IMG/VR virus record: IMGVR_UViG_3300045971_000344
Span: 186,001 to 250,000 of that record
DNA: 64,000 bases
Reading direction: 5' to 3' (one strand)
Source: a virus
Part shown: positions 42,862 to 58,590 of the stretch, one piece after another
Numbering within the stretch: the first letter of the stretch is position 1
How the letters are laid out: the number at the start of each line of letters is the position of its first letter
The notes under the pieces: model-generated
Told to the model about the DNA's origin: nothing
What the model saw: the letters and a program-made list of their open reading frames with translations, nothing else
Database searches by the model: none
Made by a program: the position numbers and the translations under genes

Positions 42862-43107
42862 ATGAGACGTGTAGTTATATCCTCTAGTCCTAGAAAACCT
42901 AATAAGGTAATAACTATTTCTTATGAGGATTGGATAAGGTTCAAACTACATCCATATTTTAGGCGTGCCACCCCTATGGAAACCTCAGGTGAGATTAAAT
43001 GTGAGTTACTCTTTTTACCTGAGAGAAATGAGACTTTTGTTTTTAATAACCATAAGACCAGAGAATATTTTAAATTAAACAAAATAAAAAAGGAGTGTAC
43101 TAAATGA
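42862..43107 (+). CDS. Small unknown protein with N-terminal leader signature
   Basis: An 81-residue protein beginning MRRVVISSSPRKPNK, the first clear right-arm case of the leader (basic residues, V-V-I strand, SSS cluster). The remainder contains a compact 'SYEDWIRFKLHPYF' helix and a C-terminal basic stretch. AAGGAG precedes its ATG; its stop overlaps the next ATG by 4 bp. Possibly a small internal virion protein (inference from the leader). Confidence 0.5.
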   Translation: MRRVVISSSPRKPNKVITISYEDWIRFKLHPYFRRATPMETSGEIKCELLFLPERNETFVFNNHKTREYFKLNKIKKECTK

Positions 43108-43784
43108 GAAAAGTAATTGTAACGTTGGCAGCGTCAAAAAGGCCCTCAAAAGAACAACTGAAAGCAGAGTTAAAACTGGCGATTGCTGACCATAAGAAAA
43201 TATTGGCAAAGCTCAAAAAGGCTAACGTTAATATAACGCTCGAAAATGAACCTGAAATAGGATGGACTGATTCCGGTTATGATGCAGTTCTGAGTGGAGA
43301 GATAGTTGTAAGAGGTAAGACTGCCTCATACTCTATTAATACCCCTGAAGTAAATTCTGTTGCTAAATTAACAAAAAAGACAAGTTGGGTATTTGATGTA
43401 TTTAAAGGACAGCCTTTGGCTTGTCTAAAGTTTATTATAGAAGCTGTTACTGCAGACGGTGGTGTAACTAAGGTAGACAGTAATCTATTAAGTGCTGAAA
43501 AAGGAATTCTAAAGGCATTGTCAAACGCCGCTGATGCTTATGTAAGAGCTACTAATGTAGCACGCTTAACCTATAGAACTAAAAGTCAGGGTGGCAAAAT
43601 CCTTTGGATTGCAGTACAAGCTCCAAGCGATATGACTGATATGGAAGGTGGGGCAATTCGTGAGGACGATGCTAAAAAGGTTGGGGTGACACTTCAACAG
43701 ATACTGGATTATCTTGTAGCAAAAGATGCGCGTAAGCCCAAGCCTCAGAAACGCTCTCCTTTTAGAGGATGTATGTATGACTAA
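43104..43784 (+). CDS. Unknown protein with leader signature
   Basis: A 226-residue protein with the N-terminus MRKVIVTLAASKRPS. A basic helical segment (residues ~18-50) is followed by an alpha/beta domain and a helix-rich C-terminal part (LSAEKGILKALSNAADAYV). No catalytic motif. It overlaps the HNH gene at its 3' end by 8 bp. The strand leader and AAS cluster place it in the putative packaged-protein set. Confidence 0.5.
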   Translation: MRKVIVTLAASKRPSKEQLKAELKLAIADHKKILAKLKKANVNITLENEPEIGWTDSGYDAVLSGEIVVRGKTASYSINTPEVNSVAKLTKKTSWVFDVFKGQPLACLKFIIEAVTADGGVTKVDSNLLSAEKGILKALSNAADAYVRATNVARLTYRTKSQGGKILWIAVQAPSDMTDMEGGAIREDDAKKVGVTLQQILDYLVAKDARKPKPQKRSPFRGCMYD

Positions 43785-44103
43785 GGTTGGGGTGGTGGGA
43801 TTATTCGGACCAGTTGAGCTAAAAGAAGTGTATCACCCACCTAGTCATAAGAGACGGTATAACGATTATGGTCCTGACTGGGATGAACTGTCTAACACTT
43901 GCTTACTCTTGGCAAATCATATCTGTCAGGACTGTCATAAAAACAAGGCAACTAATGCTCATCACATTACTCCCCTGACCAAAGGTGGGGCAAATGTGCT
44001 GAGTAACCTAAAAGCACTCTGTTTTTATTGCCACGCTAAGTATCATACGCACATGAACAAAGGTCGTAGAAAGGAGGACCATCCTAATGGCGGTGGCAAT
44101 TAA
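43777..44103 (+). CDS. HNH endonuclease
   Basis: A 108-residue protein. I chose ATG 43777 with GAGG upstream; longer in-frame starts lie inside the previous gene. The HNH core is clear: CQDCHKN, then AHHITPLTKGG, then NLKALCFYCHAKYH, that is two Cys pairs for zinc and the His-His...Asn...His catalytic layout. It lacks the leader signature. A paralogue lies at 58587. Free-standing HNH genes of this type can be homing endonucleases or act with terminase in packaging; being far from any terminase here, the homing or selfish explanation is reasonable. Confidence 0.8.
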   Translation: MTKVGVVGLFGPVELKEVYHPPSHKRRYNDYGPDWDELSNTCLLLANHICQDCHKNKATNAHHITPLTKGGANVLSNLKALCFYCHAKYHTHMNKGRRKEDHPNGGGN

Positions 44104-44401
44104 ACAACCCAAGTTAAGTTTTAAAAAACAGCCGGGGGCTAAGGGATTATCTTCGGTCGGTAACCCTCATCAGGACGTGACCATTCTATTAGATAAAAAG
44201 CAGATTGGCGTGATTTATGGCCCTACTTGGAGAGACAAAGATAGTAAATGGTCCATCCAGCTAATGGTTAAACATGCTAATAGTTGGAAAAATATTTTGC
44301 TTAAGGCTAAATTTGATACTGAAGAACACGCTAGACAGTTTATGATAAACAATATTGGCCGTATACTCCAAAAATACGAAATACATTACTTAGAAAATTA
44401 A
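44087..44401 (+). CDS. Unknown small protein
   Basis: A 104-residue protein starting MAVAIKQPKLSFKKQPG, with AGGAGG upstream and a 17-bp overlap with the HNH gene. A basic N-terminus precedes an alpha/beta part (VTILLDKKQIGVIYGPTW, then HARQFMINNIGRILQKYE) that may form a small ligand-binding domain. No known family. Confidence 0.45.
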   Translation: MAVAIKQPKLSFKKQPGAKGLSSVGNPHQDVTILLDKKQIGVIYGPTWRDKDSKWSIQLMVKHANSWKNILLKAKFDTEEHARQFMINNIGRILQKYEIHYLEN

Positions 44402-44416
44402 GATGGGAGATTTACA

Positions 44417-45412
44417 ATGACACTGACCGAAACCGTTGTTAAGTTAAAAGCAAAAGGTAAATCTAAGGATGAGGTCTTGGCCAAAGTAAAGGAATCTATT
44501 AAGACCTTGGGTGAACGGTGGACTTCTAAGAAGCAAGATCTATTTGATGAAGCTTGGGGAACTGAGGTAACTGTTAAGACAAAAGAACCTAAAATTAAGT
44601 TACCCAAAAAGAGTAAGAACCCAGAATTGGACGCAGCTCTCCAGTGGTACTCCGCAAAATACGGTGGTGGTCAGGGACCCAAGGCTACTCCAGATCAGAT
44701 TATAGCAATGTGGAAAAAGGCAACAGGTAGTAAAAAGGAAGCAACGAGGAAAGAACCTGTTCCTAGAGAGCGCGTTAAGAACAAAGAAAAGGTTATCAAA
44801 GAAAAAACAAAGTCCGTCTCTAAGTATGACCTTTATTTGGAGTTCAATAACGTAATAAGTGGATTGGCTTTCAATACAGGGCTCGTAAGTAATGAGGACC
44901 GTAGAGAGCTCTACAATGGTCCTACCAAAGTTTTAGGTGATTTCGGTCAAGGCCTGGGTGCCCTTTGGGGTGAAGGCATGAATGGTGGTATCGCCTTTGG
45001 TAAAAAAGCTCTGAAGAAGATACCTCAGGATCGTGTAGAGAAGGCTATAAAGGCAGTTTTACCTAAGATCGTACCTGCCGCCAAGGAACAAAAGCAAACC
45101 TTGATTACTATAATGGAGCAACTACCTGAGATTTATTCTACCGTAAACGGTACAAAGGCCAGCGTAGATGACGTAGGTGAGCCCATTGGTAACTTCATGT
45201 TGTTCATTGGTAAGATTTATAAATCCAAACCTGAGATTGACACAACTCAAGATGGGTGTAAGGTATATACCTACTTCAATGGCCCAAAGTCAGGTCTTCC
45301 CAAGCTGTACGTAATTCTGGATAAAAAGACTTTCTTATATGCTCGTATAAAAGACAACACTTACTTGACGCTTGAAACCTTAAAGACAAAACTAGACTCT
45401 TATAAGGGGTAG
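44417..45412 (+). CDS. Unknown protein with small helical module
   Basis: A 331-residue protein. Residues 1-~50 carry the helical module 'VVKLKAKGKSKDEVLAKVK' and 'GERWTSKKQDLFDEAW' also seen at 38819 and 8305. Residues ~50-135 are a basic Lys/Pro/Glu-rich linker. Residues ~140-331 are a folded domain with a long Gly-rich helix pair (FGQGLGALWGEGMNGGIAFG), reminiscent of structural or pore-like segments. Function unknown. Confidence 0.5.
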   Translation: MTLTETVVKLKAKGKSKDEVLAKVKESIKTLGERWTSKKQDLFDEAWGTEVTVKTKEPKIKLPKKSKNPELDAALQWYSAKYGGGQGPKATPDQIIAMWKKATGSKKEATRKEPVPRERVKNKEKVIKEKTKSVSKYDLYLEFNNVISGLAFNTGLVSNEDRRELYNGPTKVLGDFGQGLGALWGEGMNGGIAFGKKALKKIPQDRVEKAIKAVLPKIVPAAKEQKQTLITIMEQLPEIYSTVNGTKASVDDVGEPIGNFMLFIGKIYKSKPEIDTTQDGCKVYTYFNGPKSGLPKLYVILDKKTFLYARIKDNTYLTLETLKTKLDSYKG

Positions 45413-45418
45413 AGGTCT

Positions 45419-46441
45419 ATGAGATATGTAGCCATTTCAAGCGGACTAACGGATGAGATCAGAGGTTTGTTCTCAATAGCCGTTAAGGACGATAAACAAC
45501 CGGGTGATATAAGGGAATGGGAAGATAGCCTAAAAGCACTTAAGCCTAAGCTATATGAAGCATATAGATCAGCTATTACTAATAAGCTCATAGAGTGGCG
45601 TGTAGAGCTCGTACCTTACCATGGATTAGGTAGTCGTAGCTGGAGCGTTAATTCCTACAGAGCTGGTCTTAAAGGTGATGACGCGGCGATCAAGCACCCC
45701 GCCCACGTTTTAAGAGAGACGAATTCTAAGACACAGGCCCAGAAGGCAAAAGAAAAAATTGATGAATATAAATACACTAAGGTTTTATCAAGAGAACAGG
45801 GCTTCTATAAGCGCCTACGGTATCTGTATAAATTCAATTCCACTAAATTGTCTGATTGGGACCGACAGTTTATTACCTCTTTGGGTAACCAATTGACCGA
45901 AGGTAGACCTAGTACATTGAAGCAAAAGCAAATAGCGAGTAAATTATTTGAAAAATATAAAGTACCAGAAGGAGCAGAGGCAACTACTATGAGAAAGACT
46001 ACTATAAGGCATACCAAATCTAATAAGTCCAAGACTACTGCTGTGGACATGGATACAGAGTACAAAATGCTTAAGGCTCTTAATAAGTTTGCTGGTAAAG
46101 ACATTAGATTCAAGGACATGATTAAGCTCGAATTTAGGGGTGAAACCGACCACATTGAGATTTTTAGTCACCCTTTGAATTTCAATGTCAGTATAAACAC
46201 AAGCGAATTACTACATAAGTTTAAGGTTCACCCTGGTGCATTCTTGACCTTTTTGTACTATAACGGGGCTCAAAATAACGATCCTCAGAATTTAAAAGCT
46301 TATGTACCATATTCCTTTAGAAGGAAAGGCGTAAAAGCATTCAAAGGCCCTTCAAAATGGGTACATGATAGCGCTGGTTTTTGGAAGCAGATTCCTCTTA
46401 ATCCAGAAGATGAGGATTTTGAAAGCATAGAAGTTGAATAA
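45419..46441 (+). CDS. Unknown protein with leader signature and possible internal start
   Basis: A 340-residue protein with leader-like N-terminus MRYVAISSGLTDE. Residues ~85-105 are basic helix. At residue 191 there is a second leader-like start (MRKTTIRHTKSNKS) preceded by an AGAGG ribosome-site-like sequence, so a shorter 150-residue product from 45989 is possible, or the gene is a fusion of two leader-bearing ancestors. The C-terminal part has 'RRKGVKAFKGPSKWVHD' and an acidic end. Function unknown. Confidence 0.5.
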   Translation: MRYVAISSGLTDEIRGLFSIAVKDDKQPGDIREWEDSLKALKPKLYEAYRSAITNKLIEWRVELVPYHGLGSRSWSVNSYRAGLKGDDAAIKHPAHVLRETNSKTQAQKAKEKIDEYKYTKVLSREQGFYKRLRYLYKFNSTKLSDWDRQFITSLGNQLTEGRPSTLKQKQIASKLFEKYKVPEGAEATTMRKTTIRHTKSNKSKTTAVDMDTEYKMLKALNKFAGKDIRFKDMIKLEFRGETDHIEIFSHPLNFNVSINTSELLHKFKVHPGAFLTFLYYNGAQNNDPQNLKAYVPYSFRRKGVKAFKGPSKWVHDSAGFWKQIPLNPEDEDFESIEVE

Positions 46442-46469
46442 CTAATCTCTTAATGAAGGGAGTGTATAA

Positions 46470-46715
46470 ATGAGAAAGACCCTTGTTGTTAATATCCGCC
46501 AAAAAGAACAATCTTATGTAAATGAAATAGAGATAGAAAAGGCTGTAGAAAAGGCTAGAGAGGCCAAAGATTTTCGTCAAGAACTACTAAAATTAGATAG
46601 GATCTTTACGAAAAACCTAAACGAGTCAATTGGTAGTGACCGCTTTATCTATAAGAAGTATAGAGACAAGGTTAGAGGTCTTATGACGGTCCGTATGCCC
46701 GCTGGTTGGGACTGA
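46470..46715 (+). CDS. Small unknown protein with leader signature
   Basis: An 81-residue protein, MRKTLVVNIRQKEQ, then a long charged helix of ~35 residues and a basic C-terminal part (YKKYRDKVRGLMTVR). GAAGGGAG lies upstream. Highly helical and soluble; likely binds another protein or DNA. No family recognised. Confidence 0.5.
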   Translation: MRKTLVVNIRQKEQSYVNEIEIEKAVEKAREAKDFRQELLKLDRIFTKNLNESIGSDRFIYKKYRDKVRGLMTVRMPAGWD

Positions 46716-46745
46716 TCACTAAAAATACAAGCATATCTAAGCAAA

Positions 46746-46762
46746 TCGTAATTTATTTATGA
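46746..46762 (+). promoter_or_regulatory. Candidate phage promoter (GTAATTTAT element)
   Basis: TCGTAATTTATTTATGA lies in a 64-bp gene-free gap and 18 bases before ATG 46780, the same element as at 55301 (plus) and 11271, 30731 and 36889 (minus). It follows the previous gene without a terminator. Confidence 0.5.
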
Positions 46763-46779: not shown

Positions 46780-47238
46780 ATGCGAAAGATAAGGGTTGCT
46801 ATTGCATCCGTAAAGAACGAATTATCTTATCAGTGGTACAAAATAAAGAGTCGGGTACAGCCCATGGAACTCCGAGGTAAAGAAGTACGACTCAATCAGG
46901 GTGATGTTATCGGTTTCCGTCCAGGTTCCAATGGAAAGACCACTCGCATGGTCCTCAAGGATAGCATCGGGTACGTTATGAGTCCTACCAAAGAACAGGT
47001 TGAGTATTTATTGAAGAAATGCGAGCCCTTAATTGGTGGCGCAATAGACACAGCCAAGATAGGCTTAGTAACTGAACCTAAGGTTAGCGTTAAAGACAGG
47101 CGCATACTTGAAGAACTAAAGGACATGTCTAATATCTTGAAAAGGTATAAAGACATAACTGACATAAAGATCGAAAATAAACGTTTGCTATTTAGGTACG
47201 ATAATCGTCCTTACAGTATTATTAGCGACCCTTCTTAA
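46780..47238 (+). CDS. Unknown protein with leader signature
   Basis: A 152-residue protein beginning MRKIRVAIASVKNE, with GAGGAGG upstream. A basic strand-rich N-terminal half (GKEVRLNQGDVIGFRPGSNG) resembles small SH3-like or barrel domains; the C-terminal half has a helix and ends in strands. First gene after the promoter-like element. Function unknown. Confidence 0.5.
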   Translation: MRKIRVAIASVKNELSYQWYKIKSRVQPMELRGKEVRLNQGDVIGFRPGSNGKTTRMVLKDSIGYVMSPTKEQVEYLLKKCEPLIGGAIDTAKIGLVTEPKVSVKDRRILEELKDMSNILKRYKDITDIKIENKRLLFRYDNRPYSIISDPS

Positions 47239-47249: not shown

Positions 47250-47801
47250 ATGAAGACCATTAGTGTAGAAATAAGTAGCGGAGATAACCAGTTAGTGTCC
47301 CAAGCAATACGGATCCTAACTAAGGTTGTTGACGCGGGTTTTAAGAAGAAAAAGGGTAAGGGCGCTACGGGGAAAAATACTGTACAAAAGGCCATAGAGA
47401 AATTCGTTAGAAGTCTTCCTGAAAAGGATCTTCAGGAATTGATAGAAAGTAAGTACGAAAATACGGAGACCTCTGAAGATAGATTACTCGCTTTGGCTTA
47501 CAATATGAAGCAGCAGTCTACTAGGATGCCAAAAGAAAAGATAGCGGAACGGTCGGAACGCCATAAGGCAATGATAACAAAGCGTAAGAACAGAATAAAA
47601 GAACTTGAAATGAAGAAAAAGAACAGTACAAACCCAGATACTGTAAAGCGTATCTCACAGATTGTTACCAAGCATAAAGATCGTATTGACCGCCATAATG
47701 AAGCTCTTAAGTATTACAAAATGCTTGGGTCGTTAAAGCCCAAGACGCATAAAGACATAGTTAAAAAGAAGACCAATCCAATGGGCCAGTCTACTAAATA
47801 A
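47250..47801 (+). CDS. Unknown helical basic protein with leader signature
   Basis: A 183-residue protein starting MKTISVEISSGDNQ. The C-terminal ~120 residues are long charged helices (ERSERHKAMITKRKNRIKEL) ending KKKTNPMGQSTK. The last 56 codons are duplicated downstream (48228-48398), with a further remnant at 48897. Mostly coiled coil; may bind nucleic acid or act as a core protein. Lys-rich composition fits DNA contact inside a head (inference). Confidence 0.55.
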   Translation: MKTISVEISSGDNQLVSQAIRILTKVVDAGFKKKKGKGATGKNTVQKAIEKFVRSLPEKDLQELIESKYENTETSEDRLLALAYNMKQQSTRMPKEKIAERSERHKAMITKRKNRIKELEMKKKNSTNPDTVKRISQIVTKHKDRIDRHNEALKYYKMLGSLKPKTHKDIVKKKTNPMGQSTK

Positions 47802-47813: not shown

Positions 47814-48206
47814 ATGAGAAAAATCAGTGTCCGTATTGTCACAACCGCGGCTGGCGCAGGAGAAGCATGGTGGAACAATCAGAGCAAAGAGCAGAAGGCG
47901 GCGTACATCAAAGCTCATCCAAATAGTAAGTATGCTAAACAAGCGGGAGCAGAAAAAGAGACTGTGGTAAACCAACATCCAAAGAAACTTATAACTGATT
48001 CTAAACTTAATAAGAAACAAGAAAAAATAAAGGAGCTTAACGTCCAGTTAAAAAATGAAAAGGAGACGTTAAAAAAGCTTACGAAACAACTACCAAAGTA
48101 TAGATGGGGCTCATCCGCTAGTTTATGTAGATCAGAAATAGCCGATATTAAAGAAAAGATACAAAAGATTGAAAAGCAACTACAAAAATATGAAGATAAA
48201 ATCTAA
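47814..48206 (+). CDS. Leader protein with WW...HPxSKYAK module
   Basis: A 130-residue protein. Residues 1-14 are the leader MRKISVRIVTTAAG. Residues ~17-46 are a module with EAWWNNQSKEQKAAYIKAHP and SKYAKQ. The rest is a basic coiled coil. It is nearly identical in its first 45 residues to the 48411 protein, showing recent duplication. The module lies right after the small-residue cluster, which would make it the mature N-terminus if the leader is cut. Confidence 0.6.
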   Translation: MRKISVRIVTTAAGAGEAWWNNQSKEQKAAYIKAHPNSKYAKQAGAEKETVVNQHPKKLITDSKLNKKQEKIKELNVQLKNEKETLKKLTKQLPKYRWGSSASLCRSEIADIKEKIQKIEKQLQKYEDKI

Positions 48207-48227: not shown

Positions 48228-48398
48228 ATGAAAAAGAAAAATACGACTAACCCAGATACTGTAAAGCGTATCTCTCAGATCGTGACCAAGCATAATGAGG
48301 CACTAAAGTATTACAAAATGCTTGGGTCGTTAAAGCCCAAGACACATAAAGACATAGTTAAGAAGAAGACCAACCCTATGGGACAGTCTACTAAGTAA
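48228..48398 (+). pseudogene. Duplicated 3' fragment of the 47250 gene (56 codons)
   Basis: An intact 56-codon frame (MKKKNTTNPDTVKRIS...) with its own AGGAG site, 80-90% identical to the last 62 residues of the 47250 protein but missing six residues (DRIDRH). It could still be translated, but it has lost the leader and N-terminal half. It marks the start of a duplicated cassette, followed by a second WW-module gene. Confidence 0.65.
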
Positions 48399-48410: not shown

Positions 48411-48896
48411 ATGAGAAGAATAATTGTAAAGATTGTAACAACTGCTTCTGGGGATGACTGGTGGAATAGTCAGAGCAAAGAGCAGAAAGCGGCTTACATA
48501 AAAGCCCATCCTAGAAGTAAGTACGCTAAACAAGCTGGTTCGGCTGCACCTAAAGCCACTAAAACAAAGACCGAAAAGGTAGAATCACTAAAAAATAAAT
48601 TGGTAGTACATCATAAGCCATCAAAAAATTTAACGAAAGAGCAAATTGAAGATAATAAAAGGTATAATAAGTTTAAAGATAAAGAGAATCTTAAAAAAGC
48701 GAAGCTTTTAGCTGAAGGTGCTGAAGAAAAAATTAAAGCCCTTAAGGCTAAACTTAAAAAAGAAAATGACGCTAGCATAAAAACGCGCATCCAAAAACAA
48801 ATACAAAAGTTAGAGTCAGCTGTTCGTATAACGGCTATGTACTCTAGAGAAAAGGTTGACGGTTACTATAATTCAGACCGACATTATCAAAGTTAA
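48411..48896 (+). CDS. Leader protein with WW...HPxSKYAK module (second copy)
   Basis: A 161-residue protein, MRRIIVKIVTTASG then DDWWNSQSKEQKAAYIKAHP and SKYAKQAG. The following ~110 residues are a Lys-rich coiled coil that differs from the first copy, so the front end was copied and the tail diverged or was swapped. The stop is followed by a 24-bp remnant coding KKKTNPMG, the same tail found twice upstream. Confidence 0.6.
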   Translation: MRRIIVKIVTTASGDDWWNSQSKEQKAAYIKAHPRSKYAKQAGSAAPKATKTKTEKVESLKNKLVVHHKPSKNLTKEQIEDNKRYNKFKDKENLKKAKLLAEGAEEKIKALKAKLKKENDASIKTRIQKQIQKLESAVRITAMYSREKVDGYYNSDRHYQS

Positions 48897-48950: not shown

Positions 48951-50141
48951 ATGAAGAAGATTAGCGTACGTATCAGCAGCATGAACAAGGCAACTGCAGC
49001 AAGAACTCGTATGAACTTTGAGAGCGAAGGTGATGAAGGCATGAGCTTCAGGGCGGCCAAGGGCGTCAATGATGAGCTGAACGTAGTTGAAGGCGATGTT
49101 ATTTTTGATAGTGAGAACGGAATTAAATTCAAGCCTTCTCGGGCATTCCGAAAAGAAGTACCTATGAAGACAGGTAATACGATTAAGGTAGAAAAGGATG
49201 CAGAAGGTGAGCTTACCTTTGAGTTCGAAGGTAATGATATTAAATTTAAGCCTTCTCGCGCTCTTAAGAACAGCGTAATCCTTAAGAATAACAGTAAGAT
49301 CAAAGTAGCAAAAGACAATCACGGCGATATCATCTTTGAAGGCATTGACGGACTTGGATTCAAACCATCTAGCAAGATGAAGCGTATGCTCACAGCCTCG
49401 TCTGACTATACAGAGATTTCATCTGATAGTGGTGATGCATGGTGGGCGAAACAAAGCAAAGAGCAGAAAGCGGCTTATATAAAAGCCCACCCTAGAAGTA
49501 AGTACGCTAAACAATCAGGTGGACAAACTGCTCCAGCTAAAGAAAAGACAGGCGGGTCTAAGTCAACTAGCGCTCCAGAGCATTGGTTTAAGAATAAAGA
49601 AAAGCCTGGCACTAAAGAATATGACGATGCTATAATAGACGCTCTAAAGCAAAATAGTAAAGGATCTACATATGTAAATAAGAATGATAAACCTCTCTTT
49701 CTTAAGATAAAGAATCCTTCAGAAAGAGTACAAATGGAGGCAGTAAGAATTCAACCTTCTGTTTATGAGGCTATAAAAAATCCTAGTGAAAAAGTTTCTC
49801 TCTCTTACCTTAAATCTTTCCCTAGGGGAATAATGGATATAAAAAATCCTAGTGAAACTATGCTTAAAGTAGTTGAAAAGAAGGATCCCTTTTGGATAAA
49901 AGAACTGGAAAAGAAGAACGGTTCATCTAAAACAACCGTAGGTCCTAAAGATACTAACGGGCCTAAAGTAAAGGCTTTGAAAGAAAAGATTTCGGAGCTT
50001 ACTGAAAAAATGAATAAGTGGAAAGAAAAATATAGGGCGTCTAAATCAGCTACGGATAAGATAGTAGCAAAGACACACTATAAATCTACTAAAGCTGAAC
50101 TGACTAAGGTTAATCGCGAGATCAGGAAGCTTTCTAAGTAA
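48951..50141 (+). CDS. Multi-repeat leader protein with WW...HPxSKYAK module
   Basis: A 396-residue protein. Leader MKKISVRISSMNKA. Residues ~45-145 contain three copies of a ~40-residue unit with 'IKFKPSRA/S..K' and acidic strands. Residues ~144-156 show a second small-residue cluster (RMLTASSDYTE), directly followed by the module DAWWAKQSKEQKAAYIKAHP + SKYAKQSGG. After a linker come three or four short '[IL]KNPSE..' repeats of ~20 residues, resembling leucine-rich-like NPSE repeats of unknown role. A basic coiled coil ends the protein. Probably a structural or internal virion component. Confidence 0.6.
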   Translation: MKKISVRISSMNKATAARTRMNFESEGDEGMSFRAAKGVNDELNVVEGDVIFDSENGIKFKPSRAFRKEVPMKTGNTIKVEKDAEGELTFEFEGNDIKFKPSRALKNSVILKNNSKIKVAKDNHGDIIFEGIDGLGFKPSSKMKRMLTASSDYTEISSDSGDAWWAKQSKEQKAAYIKAHPRSKYAKQSGGQTAPAKEKTGGSKSTSAPEHWFKNKEKPGTKEYDDAIIDALKQNSKGSTYVNKNDKPLFLKIKNPSERVQMEAVRIQPSVYEAIKNPSEKVSLSYLKSFPRGIMDIKNPSETMLKVVEKKDPFWIKELEKKNGSSKTTVGPKDTNGPKVKALKEKISELTEKMNKWKEKYRASKSATDKIVAKTHYKSTKAELTKVNREIRKLSK

Positions 50142-50155: not shown

Positions 50156-51355
50156 ATGGCTATCAGAATATGGGAATATGGGTCATCCCCAGAAGCAGTA
50201 AATCAGAGTACGACTAATGTCCAGATTGTGGTTGGAAACCCTATTTCCTGTTCTGAGCAATTTTTGTCTACCGAGACGGGGGTTCCTTTGGAGCCCCTTT
50301 CTGGGTATCCTATTGTCCAAGTATTAGAGGGAGTTGACCTCATTACATCCACAATAGGTTATAGAAACAATAACGCTCTGCCCGGGGAGTGGACCGCGGA
50401 TCTAACAATCCCGCCCACAATAGAATTCAATTCTGGTAAAGAGAAGATACTTACCTTATCTTGGATATTTAAGTCCCTTGAAGGAACGGAAAAGTCCAAT
50501 CAGTATATAACCGTTGTACCCAAAGACGATGTCTACTCTGAGGACTACAAAGAGATTGTTTTACTTGGACCAGTACAGGACTTGAAGGTTACTGTCCCTT
50601 ACATAATAAACGTTCTGGCAGGTGACATTGCAGAATATACGTTATACGATGAAAACTCCCCTATCTCTTCAGGGAAAGCCGCAGACTCGGCTATAAATGG
50701 TCCTCACAGCGTTCTGTCTTTTACTGTAATCAGCCCCTTGTTTGTTCCACGACTTCGTCCATATAATCTTGTTATTACCTTGCGCTTTAACACCGCTGTC
50801 CGTCAGTTGTTTTCCAACGTATATCAGATTAATCCTACCATACTTAGTGCGATGCAGGCTCTAGAACTATCCATAAATAAGGCAAATCAAATTGAGACAA
50901 TTAGAGGACTCCAGTTCCGTGAGGTAGACCTTTTACAAGGATTAACCCGGGGACTCGACTACTTCAATAACGTACCGCCTACCCTAACGAGTTTCACCGG
51001 CGTCTGCATGACAGGCGGTATAAGAGAGGGCTGGCTCGTCTGCGCGTCAATCCGGTCCCTTAGAGCACAGCTACAGTCGGAGGGGATGTTCCAATTTGAT
51101 TTTTCTGGACAAAATATTAGTCTTAATGTTGACCGTCAGCAGGCAATAGAGAGTGCTTGTGGTCATTATGAATCATTAGTCGATACTATGGTCAGGCCCT
51201 TGAAGATCATACTGGGTAAAAAGGGCGTAGTAAACGGTGATGGCTCATTAGGTGATAAATTGGCATTGATGTCTTCAATGGGTCTGACCAGACTGAGTAA
51301 TAATGCTATAACTCGTTCTAAGTTAGGCAATCCATTATACCCTAGGACATGGTGA
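50156..51355 (+). CDS. Unknown virion-like beta protein
   Basis: A 399-residue protein without the leader, starting MAIRIWEYGSSPEA. Largely beta-rich with few charged clusters, typical of a structural protein; a helical segment (SAMQALELSINKANQIET) and QGLTRGLDYFNNVPP lie in the second half. The following tiny gene starts just after its stop. I suspect a tail or baseplate component but see no named family. Confidence 0.5.
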   Translation: MAIRIWEYGSSPEAVNQSTTNVQIVVGNPISCSEQFLSTETGVPLEPLSGYPIVQVLEGVDLITSTIGYRNNNALPGEWTADLTIPPTIEFNSGKEKILTLSWIFKSLEGTEKSNQYITVVPKDDVYSEDYKEIVLLGPVQDLKVTVPYIINVLAGDIAEYTLYDENSPISSGKAADSAINGPHSVLSFTVISPLFVPRLRPYNLVITLRFNTAVRQLFSNVYQINPTILSAMQALELSINKANQIETIRGLQFREVDLLQGLTRGLDYFNNVPPTLTSFTGVCMTGGIREGWLVCASIRSLRAQLQSEGMFQFDFSGQNISLNVDRQQAIESACGHYESLVDTMVRPLKIILGKKGVVNGDGSLGDKLALMSSMGLTRLSNNAITRSKLGNPLYPRTW

Positions 51356-51359
51356 TAAT

Positions 51360-51596
51360 ATTAGATACACAACTATTGCTAAAACAACTAAGCGTGGTAA
51401 TTTAGATTACGACCCTGAAGATATCCCTGAGTATAAGAAGGGTGCGGTCAAAGCAAAGGCCGATGGTATGTTTGTTATGTTTTATGATAAAAAGGGAAAT
51501 GAACTGGGTAGAAAGAAAATAGGAAACGCTAATCAAGCACAAGAATGCGCGGAATCAAATAATGTATTCTATAAGAAATATGGAGTTATGCTATGA
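51360..51596 (+). CDS. Small leader protein with probable ATT start codon
   Basis: A 78-codon frame fills the gap between the 50156 and 51593 genes. It has no ATG, GTG or TTG before codon 38. The upstream in-frame ATT at 51360 is preceded by GGTGAT, which is complementary to the anti-Shine-Dalgarno region and at proper spacing. From there the product reads (M)RYTTIAKTTKRG, fitting the genome's leader signature. The 3' end overlaps the next start as ATGA, the coupling used by its neighbours. The rest (FVMFYDKKGNELGRKKIG) is a small beta hairpin protein with a C-terminal helix. A +1 frameshift from the previous gene is a less likely alternative. Confidence 0.6.
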   Translation: MRYTTIAKTTKRGNLDYDPEDIPEYKKGAVKAKADGMFVMFYDKKGNELGRKKIGNANQAQECAESNNVFYKKYGVML

Positions 51597-52027
51597 GGTA
51601 CGTTACCCTATCTGTATCTACTAATCCAAATAGACCTAAATTTGGGACCTGTATTACTAAAGGTAAATTATGTCTATGCTTTGAAAATGCTCGTTTAGAG
51701 TATTGGGCCCAAAAGGCTAAGGGTAATGATTGCAAGTACATAGTTGGACTTGTTTATGGTGTTCCAAAAGAATTTGAGAAGGAAAAACAAGATAGTAAAC
51801 CCAGTGGTCTTTCTCACGCATGGGTAGAACTTGAAGATAATACAATAGTGGACCCCACACCCTATGCAATAGGTAAGTGGGTTCAAAGTAGAGAAATAGA
51901 AAATAATACTGCTCCAAAAGAGTATGCACTTAAGTATTGGAGTAAAAAGCATCCTTTAGAATACAAGATAAATAAGGAAATAAAAGAATCAAAATTAAGG
52001 GCGGTACTAAAATACTTTCCTCTATAG
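51593..52027 (+). CDS. Leader protein with papain/transglutaminase-like motifs
   Basis: A 144-residue protein, MRYVTLSVSTNPNR leader. Cys in CFENARLEYW, His in SHAWVELEDN and Asp in IVDPTPYAIG follow the order Cys-His-Asp of the papain-like/transglutaminase-like fold, with the 'HAWVE....ivDPT' spacing typical of that superfamily in phage and bacterial proteins. It could be a peptidase, amidase or transferase, or an inactive relative. Activity is not proven by sequence. It overlaps the ATT-start gene by 4 bp. Confidence 0.5.
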   Translation: MRYVTLSVSTNPNRPKFGTCITKGKLCLCFENARLEYWAQKAKGNDCKYIVGLVYGVPKEFEKEKQDSKPSGLSHAWVELEDNTIVDPTPYAIGKWVQSREIENNTAPKEYALKYWSKKHPLEYKINKEIKESKLRAVLKYFPL

Positions 52028-52040: not shown

Positions 52041-52313
52041 ATGCAAGTAGATACTGAGAAAATGGTTCCCACCCAAATGAAGTCCAAGCTTAAGAAGAAG
52101 GGCTATTGGATCGTATCTTGTGAGTCCGCGGGTGGTGGTAACCGTGCCCACAGCTATTGGTTCGTCTATTGGAATGACCTAGACGACTCGGTCCACGTAC
52201 AGACCGATGGTACCTTAGGTGGGGCGAGTAAGTCCTATAATAAGCAAAAGGCAATGGAAATCGCCATAACAAAAAGATATAAAGAACTTTATACGAAAGG
52301 ACAATTGCTATGA
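52041..52313 (+). CDS. Small unknown protein
   Basis: A 90-residue protein, MQVDTEKMVPTQMKSKL. It lacks the leader. The centre 'SYWFVYWNDLDDSVHVQ' is a beta hairpin; the last 30 residues form a helix. It overlaps the next gene by ATGA. Function unknown. Confidence 0.45.
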   Translation: MQVDTEKMVPTQMKSKLKKKGYWIVSCESAGGGNRAHSYWFVYWNDLDDSVHVQTDGTLGGASKSYNKQKAMEIAITKRYKELYTKGQLL

Positions 52314-52798
52314 AAAAGATAACGGTTAGAATCACCACCGCAAAGACCGATGAGCCTGTAGTAGAAAATCAATTTGCAGAGATCGTAAAAGAGATGCGGC
52401 AAATGCCTGCAGTTAAGAACAAAGAAGCCGTGTTGAAGAAGCGTAAAAACTGTATTCACCTGGAATATAAGGGCGCTAATTACTATATCGTACGCCATAT
52501 CCATGAATTGAAGAAACTTAGAGAAGAGTCTTCTGAAACTCCAGGGGACTTAGACTTTATGGATTCTTATGGCTTTAAATACTATGGGTTAACTGAAGGT
52601 AACCACGTATTTTCTTATTCTAAATTCGTGCCATCTAAAGGTATAACTTTTAGTTGTTCCGTTCGAGTAGCTAAAGATGGAACTTGGAGTGGTGGTGGGT
52701 CTGATGCTAAATTTCCTAAAAACAGAGGGTCTAACCTTTCTCAGTTAAAGACTTACGCTAATTCAGTTAAAAAGAAAATGAATTCCTTAGGTTCTTAA
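52310..52798 (+). CDS. Unknown protein with leader signature
   Basis: A 162-residue protein, MKKITVRITTAKTDEP. The N-terminal third is helical; the middle has 'IHLEYKGANYYIVRHIHEL', and the C-terminal half is beta-rich with a Gly-rich loop (GTWSGGGSD). AAAGGA precedes its ATG. No recognised family. Confidence 0.5.
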   Translation: MKKITVRITTAKTDEPVVENQFAEIVKEMRQMPAVKNKEAVLKKRKNCIHLEYKGANYYIVRHIHELKKLREESSETPGDLDFMDSYGFKYYGLTEGNHVFSYSKFVPSKGITFSCSVRVAKDGTWSGGGSDAKFPKNRGSNLSQLKTYANSVKKKMNSLGS

Positions 52799-52825: not shown

Positions 52826-53197
52826 ATGGCAACAATTTGTGTTGACTTTGATGGAACTGTAGTTACCCATGACTACCCAAGAGTAGGTAAAGATATAGGA
52901 GCGGTTCCTGTACTAAAAAGATTAGTCGAAGACGGGCATAGACTAATCTTATGGACAATGAGAGACAAAGCTGAGTTACAAGATGCAGTCAATTGGTTTT
53001 TTCAGAATAATATACCTCTTTGGGGTGTGAATGAGAACCCAGAACAACATACTTGGACGGACAGTCCAAAGGCTTATGGCCAACATTATATAGACGATTG
53101 TGCGGTTGGCACTCCCTTAATTCATGGTGTACACAGTAGACCTTATATTGATTGGGCACGTATGGAGCAATTATTGTTGGAGATGGGGGTACTATGA
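52826..53197 (+). CDS. HAD-superfamily hydrolase
   Basis: A 123-residue protein. DFDGTVV at residues 7-13 is HAD motif I with the nucleophile Asp and the acid Asp. LILWTMRDK (motif II, Thr/Met-Arg) and YIDDCAVGTPL (motif IV, DD) complete the small-HAD (C0/cap-less) pattern. Likely a phosphatase of nucleotides or a 5'(3')-deoxyribonucleotidase-like enzyme; similar small HADs are frequent in large phages. It lacks the leader. It overlaps the next gene as ATGA. Confidence 0.75.
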   Translation: MATICVDFDGTVVTHDYPRVGKDIGAVPVLKRLVEDGHRLILWTMRDKAELQDAVNWFFQNNIPLWGVNENPEQHTWTDSPKAYGQHYIDDCAVGTPLIHGVHSRPYIDWARMEQLLLEMGVL

Positions 53198-53397
53198 AGA
53201 TCAAACGACTAAAAATAACAACTGCGGCTGATACAGATAAGCATGACTACATAATTGCCGTAAAAGAGATGCTAGATAGCCATGATGAAAATGACCACAA
53301 TAAGACACAGTTCGATAACTACTCTGATAAAGCGCGCCAATTATTGGACAACAATAAAGATCGTGATAGAATGACAGTACTACTTTTATCTACCTGA
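53194..53397 (+). CDS. Small acidic protein with leader signature
   Basis: A 67-residue protein. I chose ATG 53194, which overlaps the HAD stop (ATGA) and gives MKIKRLKITTAADTDK; a longer frame begins inside the HAD gene. After the leader it is a charged helix (EMLDSHDENDHNKTQFD). Function unknown. It directly precedes the topoisomerase gene by 13 bp. Confidence 0.5.
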   Translation: MKIKRLKITTAADTDKHDYIIAVKEMLDSHDENDHNKTQFDNYSDKARQLLDNNKDRDRMTVLLLST

Positions 53398-53410: not shown

Positions 53411-54727
53411 ATGATATGTATTAAGCGATATAGGGTCCATATAAGAACCACAGCTAAAGAAGTATTGGCTAAAAACGATGACGAATGGTTTAAGGGCCTA
53501 ACTAAAGAACAGCAAAAGCAGTACTTGGAAGAACACCCAAATAGTAAATTTGCTAAAACCTTTAAGGCTAAAGAAGATGAGAATGGCCAATCAGGATCTA
53601 AAAAGACTGGCCCAGCCAAAGTAAAAAAAGAAAAGACTGACCCTTATAAAGATGTACCCGAAGAAGATAAAAAGGTCATGCTGGCGGCAAAGACTCGCGG
53701 ATATAGAGTGCCTCCTGCGTGGAGAAATGTGTGGCTCAATCCTAACCCAAAGGCTGATCTTCAGGTTAAAGGTAAGGATGCAAAGGGCCGTACTCAAAGT
53801 GTATATACTGCGTCTTTTAGAGCCGCTCAGGATATAAAGAAGTTTAACCGCCTAAGAGATTTCACTAAGGCCTATAAAGGTATGCGGACCCAGATAGACA
53901 AGGACTTTGATGAATCTCCTGAGGCACAGTGTTTATATTTGATAGCCAAGACAGGATTCAGGATTGGCAGCTCCAAAGAGACTGGCGCGAAGGTTAAAGC
54001 GTACGGAGCATCTACTCTTACTGTTGACCATATCTCAATAGATGGGGACATTATTAACTTTGATTTTACTGGTAAAAAGGGCGTACACCAGAAACATGAG
54101 ATTGTAGATGCAAAGCTCGCTAAAATGCTGAGTACTAAGAAAGAGGGCTTATTATTTGAGACGAATGGAGCAAAGATACATAAGTATTTAGAATCCTTAA
54201 ATCCAGAACAAAAATTTGAGGTCAAAGATTTTAGAACATACGTTGCTACCTCCACAGCTCTATCTTCGGTATCCTCTATGGAAGCCCCTAGGACTAAAGC
54301 AGAATATATAAAATCCGTAAATAAGGTCTGTAAGACTGTTTCAGAAAAATTAGGTAACTCCCCAGACATGGCTAAAAAGTCTTATATAGATCCTACCGTC
54401 TTCAAGGAATGGCAATCGAATATAACTGACCCGGATGTAGAGACCTCGAGTGATTCTATTGGGCCTTATTTCTGTCTAGCTATGGACAAAGAACAGCAAC
54501 TTATGCAGGACTTTATAGAGTGCAATCACTATAGGATTCCAGATAAGGTAGTTATAGCCCTTAAGAGAGTTATTAAACTTCCTCGTGGAAAAGATAGAGA
54601 GATCGCCTATTCTGCCTTCCAAAAGCTCGCAAAGGTTTTCAACTTAGTAGATACTTCAAGTAAAAAGGTCTACATAGACTCTCTCCGTGAGATCGAAAAG
54701 ATTGCACGTTCACAGGGTGATTTATGA
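53411..54727 (+). CDS. Type IB DNA topoisomerase fused to a phage leader/WF module
   Basis: A 438-residue protein. Residues 1-15 (MICIKRYRVHIRTTAKE) are leader-like and ~24-50 form the DEWFKGLTKEQQKQYLEEHP module. From residue ~95 it is a bacterial/poxvirus-type topoisomerase IB: VPPAWRNVWLNP, the RGR loop (DAKGRTQSVY), Arg184 in TGFRIGSS, Lys222 in FTGKKGV, Arg275 in VKDFRTYVAT, and Tyr325 in KKSYIDPTVF with LGNSPDMA just before it. All catalytic positions are present, so it should nick and rejoin one strand to relax supercoils. The N-terminal fusion suggests delivery into the virion, as in poxviruses (inference). It ends in an ATGA overlap. Confidence 0.8.
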   Translation: MICIKRYRVHIRTTAKEVLAKNDDEWFKGLTKEQQKQYLEEHPNSKFAKTFKAKEDENGQSGSKKTGPAKVKKEKTDPYKDVPEEDKKVMLAAKTRGYRVPPAWRNVWLNPNPKADLQVKGKDAKGRTQSVYTASFRAAQDIKKFNRLRDFTKAYKGMRTQIDKDFDESPEAQCLYLIAKTGFRIGSSKETGAKVKAYGASTLTVDHISIDGDIINFDFTGKKGVHQKHEIVDAKLAKMLSTKKEGLLFETNGAKIHKYLESLNPEQKFEVKDFRTYVATSTALSSVSSMEAPRTKAEYIKSVNKVCKTVSEKLGNSPDMAKKSYIDPTVFKEWQSNITDPDVETSSDSIGPYFCLAMDKEQQLMQDFIECNHYRIPDKVVIALKRVIKLPRGKDREIAYSAFQKLAKVFNLVDTSSKKVYIDSLREIEKIARSQGDL

Positions 54728-54972
54728 GTCGTCTCGTAGTTATCGCCGGCTCGGCCTGTAAAGGCTGTGGGGAGTCGAATACTATAAAAGACAAGCGTAG
54801 GGACTACGTAGATGTAGATAACAGCGATGAAATGCAGACTTTTAGGGTCTGTCGTCTTTGTGGACACAGGGAAATTATAAAGACACGAATGACGGTCCGT
54901 AAACGCGCAAGGCAGGATAAGCTGGCTGGTCTAGCTGACCTAATAAACGAATTGACCAATAGAGGGCAATAG
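54724..54972 (+). CDS. Small zinc-ribbon protein with leader signature
   Basis: An 82-residue protein, MSRLVVIAGSACKGCG. CKGCG and CRLCG, about 30 residues apart, make a zinc ribbon. The rest is basic and helical (MTVRKRARQDKLAGLADL). It is coupled to the topoisomerase gene by a 4-bp overlap and could bind DNA or support the topoisomerase. The start fits the leader style with an 'AGSA' cluster. Confidence 0.55.
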   Translation: MSRLVVIAGSACKGCGESNTIKDKRRDYVDVDNSDEMQTFRVCRLCGHREIIKTRMTVRKRARQDKLAGLADLINELTNRGQ

Positions 54973-54974
54973 AT

Positions 54975-55292
54975 ATGAAGATCAAAGGAATTACTATAGC
55001 TTCTTCTATAGATGACCGGCTGGAGACCATATTCAAGCAATTAGGTGCAAAGTACATGAACCATAACGGACAGTCAGTATTGGTCTTGAATACTACTCCA
55101 GACGTAATGGCACAAAAGGTTGAGATAGCGTATGAACAGTTGAGGAAACTGGGATATGATAATAAAAGCCAGTCCCAAAAGCATTTCTGGTATATAGTAG
55201 ATGCTCAAAATGAATTACCTGAGGTTCAGATTGAGTCACAAGGTTCTGAGGGTTTTATCAAAGAAAAGCACAATTATACTATAACTTGGTAA
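54975..55292 (+). CDS. Unknown protein with leader signature
   Basis: A 105-residue protein, MKIKGITIASSIDDRLE. It looks like a small alpha/beta domain (VLVLNTTPDVMAQKVEI, then YEQLRKLGYDNK). It starts 3 bp after the zinc-ribbon gene. No recognised family. Confidence 0.5.
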   Translation: MKIKGITIASSIDDRLETIFKQLGAKYMNHNGQSVLVLNTTPDVMAQKVEIAYEQLRKLGYDNKSQSQKHFWYIVDAQNELPEVQIESQGSEGFIKEKHNYTITW

Positions 55293-55299
55293 GGGTCTT

Positions 55300-55320
55300 T
55301 GTAATTTATTAATAACAATG
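55300..55320 (+). promoter_or_regulatory. Candidate phage promoter (GTAATTTAT element)
   Basis: GTAATTTATTAATAACAATG lies 14-34 bases before ATG 55334 in a short gap. It matches the element at 46746 and the minus-strand copies. Confidence 0.5.
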
Positions 55321-55333
55321 ATGAGGAGAAATC

Positions 55334-55633
55334 ATGAGAACGATAAGGGTAAGTATTGAGACCACCAAGACTACTGCGGCATCTCCGAAGGGAATTATCC
55401 AAGTATTCTTCTGTAATGGCTTGAATACTGCAATGGGTAAAGGCGTTATCTTTCCTACTAAGGCTGAGGCAGTTGAGTATGCTATTAGCAAGTTAAGAAC
55501 AAGCAGTAATTTATTTAGTTCAAAAGTATGTTTAGATACAGTTGACTCTAAAGGATGGACTTCACAAGAAACTCTCGCTGAGTTTGTAAAAAACAGCTCG
55601 GGTAAGGTTTGCAAATTAGTTCCAGTAAAATAA
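55334..55633 (+). CDS. Small protein with leader signature
   Basis: A 99-residue protein, MRTIRVSIETTKTTAAS. The next part (GIIQVFFCNGLNTAMGKGV) and 'AVEYAISKLRTSSN' suggest a compact alpha/beta fold. GAGGAG precedes its ATG. Function unknown. First gene after the promoter-like element. Confidence 0.5.
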   Translation: MRTIRVSIETTKTTAASPKGIIQVFFCNGLNTAMGKGVIFPTKAEAVEYAISKLRTSSNLFSSKVCLDTVDSKGWTSQETLAEFVKNSSGKVCKLVPVK

Positions 55634-55655
55634 TAAATATCAGGAGCACTTGTCC

Positions 55656-56522: not shown

Positions 56523-56530
56523 AAAGAATT

Positions 56531-56650
56531 TACCCATATAGACTGTTTCGTTTTTGACCGCACACGTCCTTTAAGGATGACCTAACTGAGCGTAAAACAA
56601 ATATGTGGGTTCTGGGGTGGGGTGGTGATTAACTTTACTACCCCACCCCA
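56531..56650 (+). terminator. Terminator and small structured element
   Basis: On the plus strand TGGGGTGGGGTGGT (56613-56626) pairs with 56637-56650 around a 10-base loop, 14 bp with one G-U, a very stable stop. Just upstream a longer stem joins ACCCATAT (56532-56539) with ATATGTGGGT (56601-56610), enclosing a ~60-base region with a small TCC/GGA hairpin. This could be a short RNA or a 3' end structure. The 160-bp gap holds no gene that I can support. Confidence 0.55.
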
Positions 56651-56683
56651 ACAATATTATTATTATATACTGTAGGAGAGTTT

Positions 56684-57013
56684 ATGAAAGTACGTTCAAT
56701 TGCCATTAAAGGCGAAGGAATAGAACTGGCTAAAGTTGCGATCCATGCAAAGAGAAACCGAATGAAGGGTATGTACGATAACACAAACCCTACGGCTATG
56801 GATATTTATAAAGCCCGTCATAAGTATGACTTTAAGCACGAGTTCAATAAGTTCATAGAAGATAACTACGTAGATGTTATATCCAAGACAGACCGTAAGG
56901 CTCTAATGCAGGCCGTAGAGACACACTACAATGAGGGCTGTATAGAGAACGTAGAAGACCTTAAAAGACATATTGAGGTCATAGGTAAGCGTGAAGGCAT
57001 AATCTTTGATTAA
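56684..57013 (+). CDS. Small protein with leader signature
   Basis: A 109-residue protein, MKVRSIAIKGEGIEL. Highly charged and helical (KYDFKHEFNKFIEDNYVD). GTAGGAG is upstream. No recognised family; probably DNA- or protein-binding. Confidence 0.45.
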   Translation: MKVRSIAIKGEGIELAKVAIHAKRNRMKGMYDNTNPTAMDIYKARHKYDFKHEFNKFIEDNYVDVISKTDRKALMQAVETHYNEGCIENVEDLKRHIEVIGKREGIIFD

Positions 57014-57031
57014 ACCATATAGGTGTGAACT

Positions 57032-57691
57032 ATGAAGACCCCAAAACGTACAGAAGTGGAATTGAGTACCTCAAGTAAGAGTAAGAAGCCTGTTAAAGTA
57101 AAGAAGGATTGTACTGATGTAAAGCCCGCCTTAGAAGTGAAAAAGAAGAAAAGGACTCCTGAACAGAAAGCAAAACGACTTGAAAAAATAAAGGCCAAAG
57201 TAGTGGCGGAAGAAGCGGTTGCACTCAAGCTCATTGATGACATTCATTTAAAGGCAAAAAAGAAGTTCAATGGTGAAGATGACCATAAAGAAGTTTATTT
57301 GGATATGTTTCGCCAATTGAGAAGAATAATAAAGAAAACAGAACGGTCCTGTCTTAAGTCAAAGAACGGTCAAGGTGCGTATCAACTTGCTACGTTGTAT
57401 ACTCAGTTAAGGGAAGTTCTGGCTGAGATTAGAGCCTACACGGATCTTTCTGACCATGTTGACTCTATGATTGAGCGCGTAATGAAACCCCTTTTTACTA
57501 CATTAGTACAAAGTACATCCAATGCAATGTACCAAACAAAAATAAAAATAAAAGACAAATTGAAAGAAAAAAGGGTCAGGCGGACCTTCGAAGACATAGA
57601 TGAAATAACACTTGACCAGGCGAATCAATTGCAGACACAGTATGATAAGGCCTGTCAGACAATAAGAGAGATTTTAATAGGAAATACGTAG
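57032..57691 (+). CDS. Basic coiled-coil protein with leader-like start
   Basis: A 219-residue protein, MKTPKRTEVELSTSSKSKK. Residues ~20-70 are very Lys-rich. From residue ~65 on it is a long helical bundle (LKLIDDIHLKAKKKFNGE, RVRRTFEDIDEITLDQAN). Shape and charge would suit an internal DNA-associated virion protein. Function unknown. Confidence 0.5.
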   Translation: MKTPKRTEVELSTSSKSKKPVKVKKDCTDVKPALEVKKKKRTPEQKAKRLEKIKAKVVAEEAVALKLIDDIHLKAKKKFNGEDDHKEVYLDMFRQLRRIIKKTERSCLKSKNGQGAYQLATLYTQLREVLAEIRAYTDLSDHVDSMIERVMKPLFTTLVQSTSNAMYQTKIKIKDKLKEKRVRRTFEDIDEITLDQANQLQTQYDKACQTIREILIGNT

Positions 57692-57720
57692 TCATTAATA
57701 AAGATTTGAGGTAAACCTTT

Positions 57721-58590
57721 ATGGCATATCATAAGTTACAAGTAACTATTTCAGCGGCAGGTGGTGGAAAGTCCACGCATGACCATCCTAAGGGACTTTC
57801 TAAGCCAGCTAGCTCTGGTGATAACTGGTTTGACCGTTTAAGTGAGGACGAGCAGACGGAATATATAGAGTCGCATCCTAATTCAAAGTATGCTAAAAAT
57901 ATTCACCGTGTTGACCACGAAGACCAATCGGATAAGAGTAAGAAGAAATCCGGATCTGATACTAAAAATCCAAAAGCAATGCGCCATGTATTGGCTGATA
58001 AAATAAAGGTCCTACCTAAGAAACACAAAGAATTTTTTGAGACCGAGCAGGACCAACCCAATTCAGAACAACGTTCAGGTATTGCAAAGCACATACGATT
58101 GAACCATAAAGAAATAGTTAAGCACATGAAAGGTCAGATTGTAGAGTGGAAAGATGGATGCGGGGCTATTGCAAAGCTCGCTACTGGTAAGTCCATTTCG
58201 GCACATGAAAAGAAAGCATTGAAGGCCCTAGTTATAGATGCATCCGTTATAGCTGCTTCTGTTGCTGTAACAGGTGGGTTTGCTCACGGAGCAGCGCTGG
58301 CATTGAAGCACGTTGGATTCGATGTCTTAAAAGATGTTGTACTCAAAACGGTTATAAGAGGAACTACAAGAGCAATGGGCGCATCTACAGGAGTAACTGG
58401 ACTGGTAGGCTTAGAAGCCTTGGCTACTACAGCTGCCTCTAAGAAAGTAAACCCAGATAGAATAAACGATAAGATAATGAGCATGCTGGTTAAACAGCTT
58501 GCGGCCTATATTGAAAAGGGTGATATCCCTAAAGAGGCTTGGGATAAGGCTATTGATGAATTGGCTGCAACTAATAGGAAGCGTAAATGA
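57721..58590 (+). CDS. Leader protein with WF...HPxSKYAK module and hydrophobic helices
   Basis: A 289-residue protein, MAYHKLQVTISAAGGGKS. A second small cluster (KPASSGDNWFDRLSEDEQ) directly precedes the module, which continues YIESHPNSKYAKN. Residues ~165-245 are Ala/Val/Gly-rich helices (LVIDASVIAASVAVTGGFAH), possibly membrane-active, as expected for an ejection protein. The C-terminal helix is charged. It overlaps the next gene by ATGA. Inference: a virion protein that may cross the host membrane. Confidence 0.55.
   Translation: MAYHKLQVTISAAGGGKSTHDHPKGLSKPASSGDNWFDRLSEDEQTEYIESHPNSKYAKNIHRVDHEDQSDKSKKKSGSDTKNPKAMRHVLADKIKVLPKKHKEFFETEQDQPNSEQRSGIAKHIRLNHKEIVKHMKGQIVEWKDGCGAIAKLATGKSISAHEKKALKALVIDASVIAASVAVTGGFAHGAALALKHVGFDVLKDVVLKTVIRGTTRAMGASTGVTGLVGLEALATTAASKKVNPDRINDKIMSMLVKQLAAYIEKGDIPKEAWDKAIDELAATNRKRK

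Follow-up and report, generated by a model that had tools for sequence, protein, structure and literature searches.

The window analyzed here, a stretch of 64,000 nucleotides, comprises positions 186,001–250,000 of a 294,944-bp myophage record (IMG/VR IMGVR_UViG_3300045971_000344) and contains a cluster of genes whose otherwise unrelated products start with similar short peptides, hereafter leaders. The leader pattern M-[KR]-x-[IV]-x-[VI]-x-[IF]-[TSA]-[TSA] is found in ~30 genes at 228.9–276.7 kb of the genome, the cluster continuing past the window to ~276.7 kb (outside examples are MKKITVRFVSNAAAAETSS, MRKITVRFTETSAVP, and MRKIIVRFTETGSLK), and in two genes on the left arm. According to the consensus of 33 members, R/K occupies position 2 (29/33), I/V position 4 (21/33), and V/I position 6 (28/33), followed by mostly I at position 8, S/T at positions 9–10, and T/A/K at positions 11–12; a small-residue patch occurs in 28/33 leaders vs. 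69/144 of the comparison sequences, which is partly circular, since the seeds were picked for it. The genome was read as stretches, and the regions away from the leader cluster were sampled. The major head protein matches phrog_2522 and is ~42–47% identical to the head proteins of Erwinia, Dickeya, and Pseudomonas jumbo phages, a group named “Lupandier” in PMC7412058; a sister contig (G004) shows 88% identity in the head protein and 57% in the connector protein. When the connector and topoisomerase proteins were used as queries against viral contigs, no relatives were found.

At 42.8–58.6 kb of the window (window coordinates are used below unless the genome is mentioned), 29 genes are called, 19 of them on the list of leader genes in the initial annotation, and the six starts quoted there were all found in their places. 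A position-anchored profile was constructed from the 19 readable list entries and applied in the leave-one-out mode, the null being given by segments taken from inside these proteins and the threshold set at the 99th percentile. The proposal that the listed genes share a leader held for 13 out of 19, all on the plus strand: 42862–43107 (MRRVVISSSPRK, 81 amino acids (aa), score 5.0, >99th percentile), 43104–43784 (MRKVIVTLAASKRPS, 226 aa, 6.7), 45419–46441 (MRYVAISSGLTDE, 340 aa), 46780–47238 (MRKIRVAIASVKNE, orthologue MSCKVQIEISAIKEA, 152 aa, 14.7), 47250–47801 (MKTISVEISSGDNQ, 183 aa, 8.5), 47814–48206 (MRKISVRIVTTAAG, 130 aa, 19.8), 48411–48896 (MRRIIVKIVTTASG, 161 aa, 16.5), 48951–50141 (MKKISVRISSMNK, 396 aa), 51593–52027 (MRYVTLSVSTNPNR, 144 aa, 4.4), 52310–52798 (MKKITVRITTAKTD, 162 aa, 16.5), 53194–53397 (MKIKRLKITTAADTD, 67 aa, 9.2), 54975–55292 (MKIKGITIASSIDD, full-length orthologue MKIKKIIIANNNFDERL, 105 aa), and 55334–55633 (MRTIRVSIETTKTTAAS, 99 aa, 15.5). 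Some of the bodies behind these leaders are recognizable: residues 203–326 of the 45419 protein are homologous to a stand-alone leader protein of the sister phage, indicating domain reshuffling, residues 22–68 of the 52310 protein are homologous to an 84-aa leader protein of that phage, and the 46780 protein has a weak KMPT-N (KTSC fusion) match from residue 17. A 56-aa open reading frame at 48228–48398 (+) is a near repeat of the C-terminal part of the 47250 protein, that is, a local duplication.

The remaining six listed genes, also on the plus strand, fall below the threshold. Two of them, 53411–54727 (MICIKRYRVHIRTTAKEV, 438 aa) and 57721–58590 (MAYHKLQVTISAAGGGKS, orthologue MRTLTVYIKPIHRKRITLS, 289 aa), carry the leader in an offset position, with its pattern retained by the sister-phage orthologues; the candidate 57032–57691 (MKTPKRTEVELSTSSKSKK, orthologue MKSNTNKTELTLSTKKKK, 219 aa) has an offset leader as well, whereas 46470–46715 (MRKTLVVNIRQKE, 81 aa), 54724–54972 (MSRLVVIAGSACKGCGE, 82 aa), and 56684–57013 (MKVRSIAIKGEGIEL, orthologue MKIKSLVYIDKTEAQ, 109 aa) are weak candidates. 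One more listed entry, 51360–51596 (+), does have a leader-like frame but lacks ATG, GTG, or TTG; it reads ATT-AGA-TAC-ACA-ACT-ATT-GCT-AAA-ACA-ACT (IRYTTIAKTT, continuing to IRYTTIAKTTK), so that an ATT start is required and this possible leader protein is uncertain. Both left-arm members pass the profile, namely, 9258–9656 (−; MKIIKFVIVADARF, orthologue MKIKKVTLSDSRLSYNESGEST, 132 aa, score 5.8) and 9758–9964 (−; MKIKAVTIANRSLDK, orthologue MKITKFKVQSGARG, 68 aa, score 6.7).

Since the seeds had been chosen by eye in the initial annotation, we give more weight to a held-out test than to the leave-one-out scores. In the adjoining DNA (genome 250–289 kb), beyond the listed genes, 15/41 genes exceeded the threshold vs. 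2/104 in four control regions (p = 6e-8); tagged, i.e., leader-bearing, genes numbered 0/24, 0/29, and 2/36 in the control regions at 20–40, 100–110, and 80–100 kb of the genome, respectively. A profile-free pair test, in which similar N-terminal 13-mers were counted between proteins with non-homologous bodies and pairs with homologous bodies were excluded, gave 52 pairs vs. 3.3 in shuffles (maximum 7), whereas the control regions of this genome gave 3 vs. 2.5. Applied to the T4 internal proteins as a positive control, the pair test placed IPII/IPIII first and IPI/IPIII third. Thus, the leader recurs well above chance. An isolated leader-like protein, MKIKTVVIETSSKDLL, is encoded at L004:7364–7879 (genome ~87.4 kb), remote from the cluster.

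Lys in the leaders is encoded by 17 AAA and 20 AAG codons, as in the genome background, and where a residue is identical between two leaders, the codons agree in only 35% of pairs. Leader codons therefore vary freely, and selection acts on the peptide; this variation speaks against recent DNA copying and makes an effect on the translation start unlikely. The leader as a DNA-level copy or a translation enhancer was accordingly rejected.

Enzymes that are complete in themselves carry the leader as an extra N-terminal piece. The gene 53411–54727 encodes topoisomerase IB (Pfam Topoisom_I, 8.6e-27; PDB 2f4q/3m4a), matching Deinococcus and poxvirus-type enzymes, with a fold related to bacterial and poxvirus enzymes; the protein consists of the leader, an HPNSK module at residues 25–49, a linker, and the catalytic domain at residues ~96–338, and in the AlphaFold model residues 1–22 have a predicted local distance difference test score (pLDDT) <50 and most of the catalytic core 70–92. 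Similarly, a complete ferritin is encoded at 7757–8299 (−), with the Pfam Ferritin match starting at residue 34 and residue 26 aligned to residue 3 of 1eum (165-aa solved Ferritin 1), the ~23 extra N-terminal residues, MSKTNPFKLNVLTASGSGGLSVT, being a probable offset leader, and the NUDIX domain of the protein at genome position 271,134 starts at residue 25. The ferritin gene sits beside the head genes, and its product may store iron or protect DNA inside the particle. The initial annotation had proposed that a leader integral to different folds would speak against sorting; ferritin, topoisomerase IB, and NUDIX contradict this. In some small proteins, such as 54975, the leader may belong to the fold or not; the AlphaFold model of 54975 from two sequences, with mean pLDDT 49 and the leader shown as a strand at pLDDT ~42, is too poor to tell. 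In syntenic orthologues from the sister phage, with bodies ~35–60% identical, the leader pattern is kept, yet most alignments begin behind the leader.

Several leaders precede a common module, W[WF]xxx[ST]xxxxxxY[IL]xxHPxSK[YF]AK (HPxSK), present in five window proteins, four of which have it at the N-terminus with the leader before it. In the 47814 protein the leader is followed at once by WWxxxSKEQxxxYIxxHPNSKYAK, the 48411 protein consists of a leader plus the HPxSK module, and in the 57721 protein the HPNSK module spans residues 35–59. In the fifth carrier, 48951, the module is internal and lies at an apparent fusion point: from residue 146 this protein aligns with the start of a leader-plus-HPxSK protein of the sister phage and is probably a fusion of two tagged proteins. 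An IMG/VR scan for the module yielded 18 loci, two of them being the sister contig itself; in most of the loci it stands behind a short N-terminal leader. In Yoloswag, a region annotated as a beta-1,4-glycosyltransferase includes a module match at 106,440–106,538 (L051); NCTB (L050) and G014 (L048) encode the module protein separately, in a gene adjoining a glycosyltransferase-like one.

In the flanks of the HPxSK loci and in Yoloswag, a leader particular to the phage recurs on unrelated neighbor genes. The dialects of more distantly related phages whose head-maturation protease is homologous have the forms MKIKISLSA, MEIVVSLSA, VFKIEAxxRIxA, and FKINAxxRLxAS. The G013 leaders are MKIKISLSA, MKIKVSLSA, and MKLNIALAA, those of Yoloswag are MEIVVSLSA, MEIIVSLSA, and MEKVVSLSA, and others are VFKIEAYKRILA, AFKIEAYKRIQAS, and KIEAMQRIMAS (G010), FKINAVQRLKATS and FKINAAFRLFAD (G007), and IKINAARRLMAS (G008). 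Pair counts exceed those in shuffles in all these genomes and in the sister contig. The BcepSauron dialect (MFAVEAAKRLLAT, MKLEAATRLLAT) rests on inspection, as its pair count of 7 vs. a shuffle maximum of 6 comes with top-scoring pairs that are not tagged genes. The profile of the phage studied here picks up the dialect of the sister phage (9/25 vs. 7/443 in PaBG, Lu11, and Yoloswag) and recognizes the other dialects poorly.

Related enzymes differ in their dialects accordingly. The NUDIX hydrolase starts with MRFVIIAGEED here and with MEAAYRLLTD in the 54%-identical BcepSauron homologue, a more distant Yoloswag NUDIX protein starts with MEIIVSLSARD, and the CBB homologue begins directly with the domain, having no leader. 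Topoisomerase IB starts with MICIKRYRVHIRTTA here, with MKIIQVKYISLAS in the sister contig, and with MKIQIALSK in G013. Hence, homologous enzymes carry the dialect of their phage; the tag goes with the phage rather than with the enzyme, as expected if a phage-specific component reads it as an address.

The cluster is linked to head maturation by its neighborhood. A head-maturation protease, identified via its Yoloswag homologue, is encoded at genome positions 275,388–276,131 near the end of the cluster, with the homology to the Yoloswag protein at 275,448–276,116 (phrog_18299, 5.7e-73), and a giant helicase comes after it at the cluster end; in PaBG the counterpart of this helicase is a virion protein, and the head protein loses ~20% of its mass on maturation (PMC7412058). 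Homologues of the protease were found in nine out of 11 other records searched; in those for which the positions of protease and leader genes were both determined, the two lie within ~10–20 kb of each other. A search of the genome for Pfam families S77 (PF03420; T4 gp21) and S78 (PF04586) gave nothing above the curated cut-offs, and the encoded protease itself has zero Pfam matches.

Two structural proteins with leader-like starts were considered and set aside. The N-terminus of the major head protein (3836–4930, −), AGVKFTLASGAE, is leader-like, with the phrog_2522 match beginning at residue 31, but the alignment shows homology throughout the group, also in phages that have no tag set, and it was excluded from the count. 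The start of the scaffold-like protein at 5777–7618 (−) resembles those of its Lu11 and sister-phage homologues and is read as the strand–helix start of a domain, not as a tag; this gene, named “ATPase” in PHROG, adjoins the major head protein gene and contains a long Asp/Glu repeat block at residues ~140–340. A conserved head–tail connector-type protein without a leader (50156–51355, +) is a landmark also present in PaBG, Lu11, and Yoloswag. Elsewhere in the window, fiber proteins at 17680–22941, 29113–29697, and 31357–33720 (−) have collagen-like GPQG repeats, and TARTNADATL-type repeats occur at 24436–28092 (−).

Taking all this into account, we favor, with a probability of about 0.62, the interpretation of the leader as a virion-sorting (capsid-targeting) tag that works like the signals of T4 and P1 and is unrelated to them in sequence. 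The initial annotation had suggested that these genes encode cargo proteins marked by a sorting tag that differs from that of T4; this is partly supported, agreeing with the add-on position, the clustering at the protease, the single dialect per phage, and the different dialects on related enzymes. The [ASG]xE motif, the Glu site of the T4/phiKZ type, is not enriched behind the leader (10/33 vs. 37/144, p = 0.66), and [ILV]xE is found in 6/33 vs. 41/144, hence the tag either stays on or is cut elsewhere by this protease.

Besides this lack of enrichment, several other observations weigh against sorting to the head. Untagged genes (two HNH, one HAD-like, and the connector) are scattered among the tagged ones. 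No tag set is seen in the ~140 kb of PaBG and the ~90 kb of Lu11 that were read, both being relatives that encode this protease, and thus the tag is not universal. The literature search found no proteomics of this phage or of a tagged relative, the PaBG data comprising only 14 bands and the Dickeya paper none. Finally, in BcepSauron tagged genes also occur among the tail genes, between the tail sheath and the tail tube, and adjoining the connector, which brings in sorting to the tail rather than the head.

Such a tag would dock proteins on the tail tube, sheath, or baseplate, and the clusters of G010 and G013, which flank both head and tail genes, are compatible with it; still, a tail would be an unusual place for enzymes such as topoisomerase IB, ferritin, and NUDIX, and the cluster in this phage has at its end the head-maturation protease and the helicase with the virion counterpart, so we consider tail sorting unlikely. 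The leader could also direct proteins to a phage-made site in the cell, such as a replication compartment, a membrane, or an assembly site. The sequence is compatible with this and the cargo includes a DNA enzyme, yet the tagged genes adjoin structural genes and are rare in the control regions, making an intracellular address improbable as well. An even less plausible explanation is a common fold or ancestry, in which related small folds would open with the leader as a strand, or the genes would be paralogous: in the 54975 protein the leader is conserved along with the body (58% identity) and is modeled as a strand, whereas homologous-body pairs were left out of the pair test, and the known folds begin behind the leader. 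Lastly, basic residues directly behind Met are common in well-translated genes, but an early-codon signal raising expression of late genes, with the peptide incidental, is very improbable, being largely refuted by the codon data and by wholly different dialects of other phages, such as EAAxRLxAS.

If the leader is a sorting tag for the virion, its first 10–18 residues, which begin with basic ones and continue with a short beta-prone segment and a patch of T/S/A, would be recognized by a prohead component of the same phage, candidate readers being the scaffold or core, the N-terminal region of the capsid protein, or the head-maturation protease. In this way, ~30 otherwise unrelated proteins would be enclosed in the head and probably ejected together with the DNA; recognition by prohead parts, localization in the head, and ejection are inferred. 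More tentatively, at somewhat less than even odds, a large group of jumbo myophages may use a phage-specific address code, where the prohead reads the N-terminal dialect of its lineage, any gene acquiring this dialect becomes virion cargo, the same enzymes (NUDIX, topoisomerase IB, HPxSK-module proteins) are recruited repeatedly and retagged, and tags co-evolve with their reader.

Most jumbo-phage proteins are unannotated, and a packaging signal would allow dozens of unknowns in many phages to be classified from sequence alone as virion cargo, likely delivered to the host. It would also serve as a new, short signal by which proteins could be loaded into phage heads, and make the choice of cargo by the prohead testable, with the dialects serving as natural mismatched pairs.

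In T4 and P1, short peptides at the N-terminus have been shown to be capable of directing proteins to the head (PMC5694885; PMC9024508). The capsid-targeting sequence (CTS) of T4, carried by IPI, IPII, IPIII, and Alt and removed by gp21, is likewise a short N-terminal peptide common to unrelated internal proteins of a phage that encodes a head-maturation protease. However, it has the form MKTYQEFIAEA with a Glu cleavage site, in contrast to the beta-prone K-x-[IV]-x-[VI]-x-[IF]-T-[TSA] with no enrichment of this site; it has a handful of carriers, compared with ~30 here, and the protease described here belongs to phrog_18299 and does not exceed the Pfam S77/S78 cut-offs. As initially suggested, the leader is unlike the T4 tag, the 33-leader consensus having no similarity to the MKTYQEF-type peptide when compared by eye. 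In view of the unenriched cleavage motif and the possible tail destination, we do not claim membership in the T4 CTS family. The ejection-protein propeptides of SPN3US and phiKZ also come from jumbo phages, and N-terminal regions have been proposed to target inner-head proteins, with gp53 and gp54 having an identical N-terminus (PMC5694885); these propeptides are mostly >100 residues long and are cut at AxE or SxE, while the leaders have 10–18 residues and no enrichment of the motif. In P1, the N-terminal 30 residues of DarB suffice to bring a reporter into the head, similar to the role proposed here; no consensus has been found in the Dar proteins of P1 (PMC9024508), whereas the leaders have a strong one.

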